DNA of 64,000 nt from Chrysomallon squamiferum (lineage: Eukaryota > Mollusca > Gastropoda > Neomphalida > Peltospiridae): positions 19,595,698 to 19,659,697 of the forward strand of contig CM022670.1 in assembly GCA_012295275.1 (NCBI GenBank), written 5' to 3'. The notes beneath the pieces are model-generated. The model had not been told where the DNA came from. It ran no database searches and saw only the letters and a list, made by a program, of their open reading frames with translations. Of the stretch, positions 6,328 to 63,802 are shown piece after piece. Positions within the stretch are counted from its first letter, which is position 1. Every line of letters starts with the position of its first letter. Both the position numbers and the translations under genes were made by a program.

Positions 6328-7089
6328 TTATTCAGCTTTCACTTCTACTGCACTGTCGTCATTGACGACACAATCATTTGTCTTTTGGTTTTGTTCCTCG
6401 CTGTCTTTTATTTCAGATCTCACATCATCTTGTTTTGTTTCTCGTTCGTCATTTTTGTCTACGTCTGCAGAATATCCGCTGTTAGCATTACCCTCACTGA
6501 TTTCACGTTCACTTTTAGTGTTTTGAACTCTATACTTTTTTACTTTTCTCGATAGAAGAACCATCCTGAAAAGTCATCAATAAGTGGTTATTTTATTTGA
6601 ATACTCTTATGGATGTGTGCATAAATAAATAAATAAATAAATAAACGATTTTGCTCTATGGAGAAGTATCTAGTAATACTGTCAAATTACAATAATAATA
6701 ATACAAACATTTCACTCTGTATTACCGAATGAAACTCTTCATATTCTAATAAAACGATAAGTAAAGCTGGAAGAATATCCAGTATAATTTGTTTTAAATA
6801 ACTATTAAAATTAACTGAATTTCAGAAAAATTTCAATTCTAATTCGAAAATGTAAATTATTTAACTAGTGGTTATAAAGTGTAAGAAATTTTATTCTATT
6901 ATTAATTCAAACATTTCTTAAAACAATGGTAATTCTATATTCACTCATACATCTGGGTGTGCGTGTGTGTGTGTGCGCGTGCACTCGTTTACACTTACCT
7001 AATAATAATAATTACGACAATAATATACAGTATCCCTCCTGCTATTAACAGAATCATTGTTAAAGGAATTTGGGTTTTCCGTGATGAAA
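6328..7089 (-). CDS. Transmembrane exon and 78-residue acidic cytoplasmic exon
   Basis: Exon 6999-7089 (91 nt, phase 1-2) gives [10 protein letters not shown], then a helix [17 protein letters not shown]. Exon 6328-6565 enters in phase 2 with R, then [12 protein letters not shown], a basic stop-transfer stretch, followed by a tail rich in D, E, N, K and S that ends VEVKAE and a TAA. Only two tyrosines are present (KKYRV and SGYSAD); neither fits an ITAM, ITIM or NPxY motif. The TM exon has the same length and phase as that of the right-edge receptor (62722-62812), and its tail joins in the same phase. Confidence 0.85.
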
Positions 7090-10000
7090 CTGAAAATAAA
7101 TTATATATCTCGCATTAATTTGAGAGACAGAATGTTTTGTATTTTAACTGCCAATTAAATAATTCAAGAGAGGAATGAAGAGTGATATATCTATCTGTCT
7201 ACCTATATATCTATCTTTATCTCTCTCTCTCTCTCTCTCTCTCTCTCTCTCTCTCTCTCTCTCTCTCTCTCTCTCTCTCTCTCTCTCTCTCTCAAAAAAA
7301 AGAAGAGAAAAAAAGAGCTTAACAGACAGACATAGATGACAGAGATTGGTACCTTTGTTACAGGATGTTCCACGCCAGCCATCAATACATCCGTCTACAC
7401 ATTTTCCAGTTATGAAATCACATCTATGGCTACCACAGCAGTGTCTGTCCTCACAGTTCTGTTTACATGCCAAACCATAAGTACCAAATACACAGCCTGA
7501 AATATCAATTTAACAAACGTCAGTGAAAAATCTAAAATAAAACATAAGAAAAAGTTATAACCAAATATTGCATATCGTTAAAATATTACAGACCACATTA
7601 ATGTTGTTTCAAATGTCTATTTCTGATTATTATGATATAAGTTATATTATCTTACTAAAAATATCTTCACTACCTTTAAACAGTCATTATCATACGAATT
7701 TTCTTACATTAAATATCATACAAAATCATCATCTAACGTGCAAAATCAGTATAGTTATTATCTGACGTTTCGATATTGGTTTTATCTTACGGTGAATACA
7801 GCTTAAATTTCGCCATCCCGGTTTACATCCTCCAATGCATTCTCCAGTCGTGGCATGACAAGGTGAGTTATCGTTCTTGCACTTTCTCTTTCTACAGTCT
7901 AAGCTACAGTCAGTGCCGTACGTTTTATCACATTCTGAAACACCAGTATTAATGCTAATCATCATAAATCTTACGTATAAAACTTCTGAAGAGCGCAGGA
8001 TACTGCACTATAAGATTACATATTTAAAAATTGTCAAATAAGTCAAATTAATAGACTTTTCCTTGCTTTTGCATATAATTGTACTTTTCTCATCAGTATA
8101 TAACAATATATAATTCTAACATATTTGTTATATACAGATTCTTTAAAATACACTAATCTCTTTAATTACTGAGTTATTATCACTAATTTCTTAATCATAT
8201 TTTAGTAAGTGAAACTTAAATGAAAAGATTTTCAGATCAATACCACAATTTATTATTTTTAAATTACCTCTGCAATCACTGCCCTTCCAACCAGCTTTGC
8301 ATCCGTTATCACATTTTCCATCAACAGGATTACAACTAGATGCACCGTAGCATCTCCTGGCTGAGCAAGCCAACATGCAATCCGTTCCATACGATCCACC
8401 TGGACAAACTGAAAAAACCCACCAAACAACAATGTTCCATATTCAAGGGCAAATACCGTGATAATTTTGAGTTTAGATTAATTTTTATAATGTTAATCGA
8501 TTTTTACATAAATTGTAAGGAAAATATATTAATATTAAAATATAAATATTATTATTATTATTATGTAAGATCTTACAAATATAGTAAATAATATTGTCTA
8601 GAACGGTTGTGCAGTCACGTAACAATAAAACGACTAAAGCTTGAGGGTTCGTTGTCCGAAATACTTTGGACTGAATTGTTCGGAGTTTCTAATATTAGGA
8701 GATAGCCTGTATCTTTTCGAATGGTGGAATTCTCAATCTGTACTTCCTTTGTTGCATGGTATTACAAAATTAAGTTAATCCGCGTGATCAGTGCCATTAT
8801 CATGTGTACAGATAGAATATTAAAAAAAATACCGTTTATGCTGTAGCTATTAAAATTACCTGCTGAACAGTCCTCGTTTGTCCAGCCTTGTTGACAACCT
8901 CCGATACACATTCCTAAACTGGAATCACACGTTGACGTCCTTAGACAGTGGCGGTCTGAACAATGTTTTTCACACTGATGACCGTACGTTATTCCGTTTT
9001 CACACTCTGAAATAGCATTTAATAGTAATATTTTTTCTTTTAAAGTTTTATTTTAATCATTATAAAATGGTTGTTATTCTTAAAGGTTACTGCAAATAAA
9101 ATGTGATTTTTATTTATTTGTTTTTGTATATATTTGTCTTTCATTGCAGTTTAGGAGTATTAATACAGGCTACAATTTAGATTTTATTTAACTGTCAAAA
9201 TAGCAGTCATGTTTTAATTCGTGGATTAATATTTACCTTCTGTGCAGTCTGGCTTTCTCCATCCTAACTGACAGCCTCCTACACACACCCCGGTTTGAAT
9301 ATCACAGGCTGAATTGTTCAAACAGTGACGATCAACACAGCGTTTCGTACAGCCAGAACCATACCTGATTCCTTCTTGGCATTCTAAAACACATTATGGG
9401 ATTGCTAATATTTACAGTCAAGCGTGTAATACCCCAGAAGAAGTCCATTTTATTAAGGCGTAAGCATATGATTGATTTTTGTTTCTTCGTAACTACATAA
9501 TAATTTTAAGATTTTGCAATGTCTCTCAAAAATGTATTCGAAAACAAAATTGCATCTGGGCTTCATAACATCTGAATTTCTAAGATTGTTAGATTTCGTT
9601 AATAACATAGAATTAATATATAAGATTTCTAAATATATAACAAGACTATGAAGCTGAAATATATTACCTAGAGTACAGTCATCTCCCATCCATCCTGGTT
9701 GGCATCCCGAATAACAAAGCCCAGTGAGAGGTTCACAAAAAGGATCACTTTCAGCACAGTGTCGATCTGAACACAGCTTACTGCAATCAGGACCGTACTC
9801 TCCAGGGTTACACACTGGTGCAAATCAAACAGTGTGTTAAATAAAAAACAAAAAAAAAAGTCTTCTCAAGGTAAAAAACGTGAAAAAATGAGAACACATA
9901 GCACATGCAGAAAGAAAGAGAGAGAGAGAGAGAGAGAGAGAGAGAGAGAGAGAGAGAGAGAGAGAGAGAGAGAGAGAGAGAGAGAGAGAGAGAGTATTTA

Positions 10001-62085: not shown

Positions 62086-63802
62086 TCATTTTATCTTATC
62101 ATATGGAGATGGCTGGCTTATGGCGTTCGTATTCAGTTTCTCATAGGTATTGTTCAGTTGCAGATCATTTTGCAATGATGGTGAAGACTTTAGATAATGA
62201 TGCTTTGTTTTAGGTTGAGGAACAGGCGGTGGTATCTCTGTTTTATTACTTTCAGAAGCCGGTCTTGATGTGCTGCTTGGCATTGCAAGGTGTTCATCTG
62301 TGTGTTTTATCTCAGAGAATTTCACTGCTGATTCTCTCTGCTTAGATCGATTTACTTGATACAACCTGGAAAAAGTGAATAAAACACACAACACTAGTTA
62401 AGGCTATATTACTGGTAACCGAACATTGTTTTGCTGCTGTTTTGTTGTTCTTTTTCTTCTTCTTCTTCTTCTTCTTCTTCTTCATATTATTATTATTGTT
62501 ATTATTATTATTATTATTATTATTATTATTATTATTATTATTATTATTATTATTATTATTATTATTATTATTATTATTATTATTATTATTATTATTATTA
62601 TTATTATTATTATTATTATTATTTAGATGTTTGGTCAAAGTTCCGATATATTTACTGACACCATATAGTGCAATGCTTTCTATTAATTAGGACTGATAAA
62701 ATTTTCAAAATTGTTCTTTACCTGATAATAATTATTATTGAAATTATTAAAAGCAGAAGTAATATTCCAACAGTGCTCGCCCAAACTATGGTTACCGGGT
62801 CCAAAGTTTTCTCTGAAAAACATTATAAAATAGTTTCAATGATAATTGAACATAAATATACAATTGAACATAAATATAATAGTACATAAATATACAAATG
62901 ATGATATGGATGATTATTATTATGGTTGAAGCCTAACACTATCAAACTATCATACCTGCTGTTGACGAGTTGTACTGTTTGCACAGAGCTCCATAAAACC
63001 CTTCAGTGCAACCTCCTAAACACTGTCCTGAAACAGTGTCACATGAGTTAGCGTGCTTACAGTTACCACACGTAAAGTCACAGTTCAGGCCGTAGTTTCC
63101 AGCGCTGCATTCTGCAAAAAAAAGAAAAGAAAACGAAAAGAAAAAGAAAAGTTCATGTGCAGTAGCTATCACTGATTAATGAAAATTCAGTTTAGATAAA
63201 GTATTTAATACAGTTCACAAACAATTTTGTTTTGGTTATTTTAAAATGTAATTAATTACTTTTCTTTATTTTCATTTGTTTTGTTTTATTCTGTTTTGAT
63301 TTTAAATGCAAAATAGAAATGTTTAATGATGTTTCGAATAATCTAACCTTAGAATCTGGCTATGCTCTTGGTATATATGTATGTATATGCGCATATATAT
63401 ATATATTATATAAAGCATCTGATACCGAGGACAACAAATACAACGTCCTTTGGTAGATCAATTGCAAAATAGCATAATGGACAGATGCATCCAGTGAACC
63501 AAATCCTATACCTTATTTTATAGAATAGTTGGGCAATTATTACTAATACATAGGCTAGATTGAAATACATACTAATATCGTGTGTATTTGAATTATTTCA
63601 ATTTACTTAGTTTACTCGTTTCATTTCAGCGAAATTTTAAAGTTAAAATATTTTATACCATCAAGACACGAAATTCCTTGCCATCCTCCAATGCATCCAT
63701 CAATACAACGTCCGGTTTCGACGTCACATTTTCTACTACCGTAACAGTGTCTGTCAGCACATTCTTGACTGCAGGATTCGCCATATTTGCCTGACAAACA
63801 TT
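62086..63802 (-). CDS. EGF/TM receptor with ITAM-like tail, 5' end beyond the window
   Basis: Minus-strand exons 63659-63802 and 62956-63111 (EGF-like), 62722-62812 (TM), 62086-62365 (tail). The first EGF reads GKYGESCSQEC, ADRHCYGSRKCD, TGRCIDGCIGGWQGISC; the second AGNYGLNCDFTC, HANSCDTVSGQC, GCTEGFYGALC. The TM exon (91 nt, phase 1-2) has [20 protein letters not shown]. The 92-residue tail has PPPVPQP (SH3-type), HHYLKSS, and YEKL then ten residues then YDKI, followed by a stop. MEGF/Draper/CED-1 engulfment receptors share this layout of EGF repeats, one TM and an ITAM or YxxL tail. Phosphorylation by Src-type and recruitment of Syk-type kinases would be the expected mode. No fucolectin part is seen because the gene runs off the right edge. 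Confidence 0.88.
62455..62622. repeat. (CTT)n(ATT)n trinucleotide array in a receptor intron
   Basis: CTT units to about 62483, then about 46 ATT units, between the TM and tail exons. The long frames of repeated N, Y, L or I are artefacts. Confidence 0.97.

Follow-up and report, generated by a model that had tools for sequence, protein, structure and literature searches.

In vertebrates, receptors with matched heads and swapped tails are a hallmark of innate immunity, and KIR, LILR, SIRP and Siglec are such paired receptors. Here we describe a receptor cluster of the gastropod Chrysomallon squamiferum, analysed in and around a window of 64,000 nucleotides (C6:19595698-19659697, where C6 is contig CM022670.1; coordinates below without contig prefix are window positions). 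It encodes germline single-pass receptors in which a head resembling F-type lectins sits on a stalk of eight-cysteine EGF repeats. In one class the tail finishes with YxxL/I-x(8-10)-YxxL/I at its C-terminus, which resembles an immunoreceptor tyrosine-based activation motif (ITAM); the other class carries a protein tyrosine phosphatase (PTP) domain with intact catalytic signature, and the two are interleaved in tandem arrays. The core idea, that common ectodomain modules are joined to either activating-type or phosphatase tails, is strongly supported as gene structure by an adjacent gene pair (E and F), by rejection of a single ITAM-like clade, by matched pairs from two further genera of gastropods and by genome-wide co-clustering. 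The genes probably form a paired-receptor system of molluscs, in which the inhibitory member would carry its own phosphatase.

Several elements of such a system have been described separately. Passages of PMC8092387 state that the ITAMs of Draper and Megf10 are substrates of Src-family kinases and binding sites for Syk-family kinases; in Draper-II, an immunoreceptor tyrosine-based inhibition motif (ITIM) serves to recruit Corkscrew. In oyster agranulocytes, draper-like/MEGF and receptor PTP (RPTP) transcripts are both enriched, circulatory over mucosal (excerpt of PMC13070813). Passages of PMC8791074 place MEGF10 and RPTP-alpha of Biomphalaria in one network and count, in its response categories, 45 receptor phosphatases that 'await further study'. 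For Gigantopelta aegis, which belongs to the same family as Chrysomallon, PMC7895826 counts fucolectin and MEGF with the expanded immune families and has PTPRK in its gene-family abbreviations, the two not being joined in the excerpted text. In titles and abstract openings of the open literature, a scope that mostly leaves subscription papers outside, we found no description of molluscan ITAM/PTP paired receptors.

Organization of the receptor cluster

We examined C6:19526001-19859000 and found nine receptors of the FTP (fucolectin-type) and EGF type inside 200 kb. R1, R2, R4, B and F contain PTP domains, C, D and E have ITAM-like tails, and A has an acidic tail. Remnants lie at C6:19566784, at the window start and at C6:19667435, where an ITAM-like tail is broken by a stop and in its frame. 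WPD and AG[IV]GRT were intact in all five cluster PTPs. The transmembrane (TM) exon is entered in phase 1 and left in phase 2 in eight of the nine receptors by scan, and likewise in F on reading (donor GTTTGT); tails attached through a TM exon of constant phase can thus be regarded as interchangeable modules.

With regard to the heads, six of the seven PDB matches of the F FTP domain at E<1 were fucolectin-type chains (E 5e-9 to 3e-3). The fucose-binding motif of F-type lectins is His/Arg/Arg. The His and RxDx4R could be read in the FTP of B and F, while Ser replaces the His in E, and A, D, R2 and C carry other residues. An FTP exon possibly belonging to R1 sits just past the examined region.

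A matched pair with different tails

Genes E (ITAM-like) and F (PTP) are adjacent, and their ectodomain exons and introns aligned in five blocks of 88.9-98.9% identity with gaps included. Without gaps, 371 substitutions were counted over 11,923 bases (96.9% identity). The homology begins upstream of the FTP and stops abruptly at C6:19694650 in E and C6:19716027 in F. Past this break, E continues into EGF, TM and tail sequences resembling those of D (tail exons 92% identical, dN 0.055 and dS 0.171, nonsynonymous and synonymous divergence respectively), while F continues into different EGFs, a different TM and the PTP. Over five compared exon pairs (401 codons, leaving out the second FTP exon, whose F copy is shorter by 8 residues, and the four repeated single EGF exons) we observed 11 residue differences, with dN of 0.013 and dS of 0.027. 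Substitutions amounted to 3.1% overall and to 1.0% within one 2.25-kb block. Identity varies from block to block (92-99%), and this unevenness suggests conversion.

The first FTP exons (C6:19684574-19684780 in E, C6:19706269-19706487 in F) differ by two residues. One of these is a His in F, aligned with fucolectin HT residues, and a Ser in E; this exchange could possibly alter sugar binding between the two receptors.

Could the two ectodomains be haplotypes of one gene set in tandem by the assembly? Heterozygosity of the Chrysomallon source is given as 1.38% in the excerpt of PMC7142155, and the substitution levels above, as well as the exon dS, are not far above this value. However, the blocks carry 363 gap columns in total, the 3′ ends of the two genes are entirely different, and the DNA following E resembles that following D. 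Moreover, matched pairs were also found in G. aegis and abalone (below). Haplotype origin of the E/F ectodomain copies is thus unlikely, and we leave it a very small probability.

FTP trees and matched pairs in other gastropods

We then considered ectodomain relationships by FTP trees. In a 29-row tree (using 22 of 36 FTP matches), FTPs of all three tail types grouped with Gigantopelta P0001 (support 98/98); E and F were joined across tails at 100/98 and D joined them at 99/91, while gene C formed a long branch. A 19-row topology test (twelve matches used) rejected a single ITAM-like clade {C,D,E} with an approximately unbiased (AU) p of 0.00029, and {D,E} with p=0.0019. The {D,E} clade was rejected again in a 41-row tree (p 0.0012). 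In this larger tree, eight changes of tail type were counted among 29 labelled rows, 14 ITAM (P0138, with a V-type motif, being counted twice) and 15 PTP, with A and 11 others uncounted.

The homologs, carrying database names such as MEGF10/11, PEAR1 and draper-like, included further matched pairs. G. aegis P0126 (ITAM-like, YDRL-x10-YSKI) and P0001 (PTP) were FTP sisters at 100/99 in the 41-row tree, and their ectodomains shared 82.5% identity over 348 aa. Similarly, P0139 (x12 motif) and P0009 (PTP) of the black abalone H. cracherodii were 74% identical over 405 aa. A third pair, P0122/P0005 of G. aegis, showed 72% over 229 aa, with P0122 nearer overall to its ITAM-like mate P0125. The contigs of each pair are listed with equal size, which suggests that its members share a chromosome.

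Co-clustering of tails across the genome

Sequences matching the tails of C and E are concentrated at C6:14.4-14.6, 19.5-19.7, 20.5-20.6 and 21.7-22.0 Mb and at C8:34.6-35.2 Mb, and among the matches listed, PTP and FTP exons occupy these same regions. Every one of the 50 tail matches counted had a PTP exon no more than 100 kb away, and for 41 the distance was at most 50 kb; none of 5000 circular shifts equalled 50 within 100 kb (mean 2.6, maximum 40). On the PTP side this test used 86 rows among the matches listed, and on the tail side 49 of 62 match rows plus gene C. Left out on the tail side were 13 rows: five for TM exons, two that are split pieces, three on C15 stopping before the motif and, as weak or split, those at C7, C6:20514269 and C6:21708415. 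Rows kept include the weak C6:21708308 (E 0.47) and C6:21825733 (E 0.11); some match the motif end only and six have in-frame stops. Tails were read in sequence for C, D, E, the broken copy at C6:19667435 and the C8 copy L036, all others being assigned by match alone.

Shared ectodomains could be a by-product of a single expanded adhesion or scavenger family whose genes duplicated in tandem and whose exons were shuffled, with ITAM-like and PTP pathways separate and not antagonistic. This would fit the FTP clusters on C7 and C12, which are near neither tail among the matches listed, the C4 cluster, whose only neighbours of either tail class are two PTP rows, the PTP-rich cluster on C14 without ITAM-like tail among these matches, and the frequency of decayed exons. 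On the other hand, ectodomains match across tails in three gastropod genera with the tail motif conserved (in selected rows), and the D and E tails diverge less at nonsynonymous than at synonymous sites (values above). We find this explanation rather doubtful and prefer a paired-receptor system.

Several places differ from the mixed clusters. The PTP-rich cluster spans C14:16.68-18.82 Mb and holds at least 34 catalytic exons, with zero ITAM-like tail matches among those listed. FTP-exon clusters without ITAM-like tail among the matches listed are at C4:10.1-11.3, C12:3.8, C7:24.1 and C15:28.7 Mb. At C15:27.60-27.63 Mb, three sequences interleaved with FTP exons match the E tail in its membrane-near half and end before the motif; perhaps the motif was lost from these receptors or never present. 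Finally, C8:8056181-8093623 (L001-L006) contains three tandem places with two PTP domains per single open frame (650-902 aa), possible intron-poor retrocopies.

Motifs of the cytoplasmic tails

To describe the ITAM-like tails, a relaxed motif Y..[LIV]-x6-12-Y..[LIV] was used, the canonical ITAM spacing being x6-8. Among 28 homologs examined (two PTP, seven without visible TM and 19 others), 14 of the 19 non-PTP TM homologs carried the relaxed motif, or 12 if only L or I were accepted. By chance it appeared in 0.9% of tail C shuffles and 0.5% of tail E shuffles. Canonical x8 spacing was found in P0146 (Ostrea), P0148 (Saccostrea, no FTP called) and P0130; elsewhere spacing was x9 or x10 in Gigantopelta and x12 in P0139. 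In an alignment of 13 tails only the two Tyr were invariant, partly a matter of selection since these tails were picked for bearing the motif (P0125, P0131, P0138 and P0142 omitted).

On the phosphatase side we examined 49 RPTPs, one of them without locatable juxtamembrane. ITIM-like sites were not enriched in this set (19/49, against a shuffle mean of 12.0 and maximum of 21), and an ITIM pattern arose in 6% of gene B juxtamembrane shuffles. The ITIM was accordingly rejected as inhibitory device, for lack of enrichment over shuffles; the PTP domain is there instead. YxN, by contrast, was present in 47/49 juxtamembranes (shuffle mean 11.8, maximum 21).

The conserved YxN is open to another explanation, in which the PTP receptor acts positively, as a co-receptor. 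YxN can be read as a docking site for Grb2-type adaptors. Like CD45 or RPTP-alpha, such a receptor would strip the inhibitory phosphate from Src and prime the ITAM member while YxN docks the adaptor. Besides the YxN count, the best-scoring solved relatives of the first PTP domain (D1) of gene B fit this idea, as they include PTPRA, PTPRS, PTPRE, LAR and CD45. A common ligand-binding head, however, would keep the phosphatase at engaged ITAM tails rather than exclude it. A co-receptor role has some plausibility, although we doubt it and favour an inhibitory phosphatase receptor.

A proposed ligand-gated phosphatase as inhibitory partner

How could such a pair of receptors operate? Upon ligand binding, the ITAM-like class would be phosphorylated by Src-type kinases and its tail would recruit a kinase of the Syk/Shark type, in the manner of Draper and Megf10, the outcome being hemocyte engulfment or activation. 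The PTP class would bind the same or a related ligand via the common head, enter the same contact and dephosphorylate the ITAM-like motif, hence setting a threshold. The inhibitory receptor would in this way contain a ligand-gated eraser, replacing the ITIM that recruits SHP.

This model presumes a function in hemocytes, while adhesion or tissue patterning, rather than immunity, would be suggested by Megf10 of vertebrate brain and retina, which acts in synapse elimination and retinal patterning (passages of PMC8092387). We think this improbable: the tandem arrays are large and decaying, the heads are lectin-like, and both annotation classes are hemocyte-enriched in oyster according to the excerpt of PMC13070813.

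A number of observations weigh against the paired-receptor interpretation or narrow it. The relaxed motif is missing from 5 of the 19 non-PTP TM homologs; spacing in the C, D and E tails, x10 in this snail, is outside the canonical range; and in L036 the second site reads YEKK where YxxI is expected. No FTP of R4 was found in the examined C6 region, and two EGF exons of D are damaged, one containing a stop and the other being shortened. The FTPs of A, B and C are mutually just 37-45% identical, so that no matched pair exists among the window genes themselves. A common tandem origin partly accounts for the co-clustering of tails and PTPs. The conservation of YxN and not of ITIM-like sites also counts here. 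Lastly, alpha/CD45-type RPTPs can activate Src kinases, and 'inhibitory' thus cannot be deduced from the PTP domain.

An initial annotation of the window had proposed a paired-receptor locus formed by A, B and C. These three are not a matched pair among themselves; the proposal gains from the E/F pair, the pairs of other genera and the clade rejection. Two of the checks it named, a search of the flanking scaffold for more members and a comparison of ectodomain trees with tail types, gave the nine-receptor cluster and the cross-tail grouping described above. Its view of the locus as a cephalopod analogue has to be abandoned: the source is a gastropod and the best homologs are from Gigantopelta.

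We further propose, tentatively and as a possibility slightly short of an even one, that lectin-EGF paired receptors predate the gastropod/bivalve split, that their inhibitory member is a ligand-gated tyrosine phosphatase, and that ectodomains were repeatedly copied between tail classes via tail-switching recombination. In symbiotic vent snails, the system may set symbiont tolerance. If true, head-matched, tail-swapped receptors would occur in molluscs with an eraser enzyme fused into one partner, the abundant snail receptor phosphatases would find a role, and matched pairs like E/F would become available as test objects for activation thresholds, with a candidate tolerance switch in symbiosis as a further gain.

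Genes of the window

Gene A lies on the minus strand, and its 16 exons splice into one 816-aa frame with zero internal stops. By exon model, a signal-peptide exon (17752..17830) is followed by the FTP domain in two exons (16294..16989, supported also by the FTP tree), 11 eight-Cys EGF exons, every one of phase 1-1 (7353..15672), a TM exon of phase 1 in and phase 2 out (6999..7089) and a last exon encoding the acidic cytoplasmic tail (6328..6565). A pattern scan of this tail detected no ITAM or ITIM pattern. Used as query against 148 proteins, it gave two weak matches only (E 0.0007 and 0.0015). At the window edge, ~1..860 on the same strand, is a decayed fourth receptor with EGF exons frameshifted or broken by microsatellites and the beginning of a TM-type exon.

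Gene B, on the plus strand, has an FTP domain in two exons (46936..47729), a sole intact EGF exon (48421..48567), two more EGF exons having decayed, with a frameshift near 49080 and a stop near 49560, and a TM exon (50261..50354). Its juxtamembrane exons (51527..52178) contain the YxN sites NVYANA and SVYCNV. They are followed by D1 (52664..55616), carrying WPDHGVP and HCSAGVGRTG, and by a degenerate second PTP domain, D2 (56087..59150). The PTP matches PF00102 with E=3e-77, and gene B is 54% identical to G. aegis P0001 over 78%. The D2 exon 57905-58057 reads into an in-frame TAG (58057) with no evident in-frame join. This exon end (58046-58057) falls about where the HC exon would finish, and gene B may be truncated within D2. 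In an intron of gene B (50636-51260), frames resemble, by eye, what we take to be a decayed transposase-type element.

Gene C, on the minus strand, enters the window with its membrane-proximal EGF exons (62956..63802, exons 63659-63802 and 62956-63111), TM exon (62722..62812) and tail (62086..62365). The tail has the C-terminal YEKLNTNAISQPSPYDKIK, ITAM-like with x10 spacing, and its terminal sequence is TYEKLNTNAISQPSPYDKIK (YxxL-x10-YxxI). The FTP and further EGF exons of gene C sit just beyond the window.

The exon models of A, B and C confirmed the three EGF-repeat receptors with different tails that had been announced by the initial annotation. It had assigned fucolectin domains to two of them; an FTP is in fact present in all three, and the EGF stalk expected of B is reduced to its one intact repeat. 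The tail of A, described as inert, bears no ITAM or ITIM pattern; a decoy role for A is left unsupported by the two weak matches among 148 proteins. For B the active-type PTP was retained and the ITIM-like site was not; for C the relaxed ITAM-like pattern was rare in shuffles, and its spacing is x10 in place of x6-8.

The four lectin genes noted between the receptors were found between A and B, all on the plus strand and modelled as rough composites of PAN and C-type lectin: gene 1 at 20602..23634, gene 2 at 26864..29369, gene 3 at 34692..37185 and gene 4 at 40181..42460. The PAN exons of genes 2 and 3 (26864-27181 and 34692-35008) are 99.4% identical over 318 bases. A one-base gap late in the gene 3 exon shifts its frame relative to gene 2, and the two are a recent copy, one of them possibly broken.

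Comparison with known systems

The closest systems include the molluscan FTP-RPTPs (RPTP alpha/epsilon/kappa/T-like, from Gigantopelta, Haliotis and oysters), proteins of the type represented by B and F. They are known as annotations, and in the literature found they are not linked to ITAM-like counterparts.

Draper, CED-1 and MEGF10 share with the snail receptors a stalk of EGF-type repeats, a single TM and a tail with tyrosine motifs. Unlike them, the snail receptors have an FTP head, large tandem families and a phosphatase-tailed counterpart. Tails C, D and E contain no NPxY. Also, no EMI domain was found: A runs from signal peptide to FTP, and the E model, in which the signal exon was not sought, gave F5/8 C-type Pfam models only.

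For other invertebrate receptors, namely Hydractinia candidates, the Botryllus fester family and FcoR, an integration of signals from ITAM and ITIM has been proposed (excerpt of PMC12065747). In contrast to the snail receptors, those of Botryllus have Ig/Sushi regions, and the device in this group is an ITIM instead of a fused phosphatase.

As for the vertebrate paired receptors, the likeness lies in clustered germline genes, in near-identical ectodomains on activating- or inhibitory-type tails, and in birth, death and apparent conversion. Their heads, however, are Ig domains where the snail has FTP and EGF. The inhibitory candidate of the snail has its own PTP domain, an ITIM being unsupported, and the activating motif is within the receptor's own tail.

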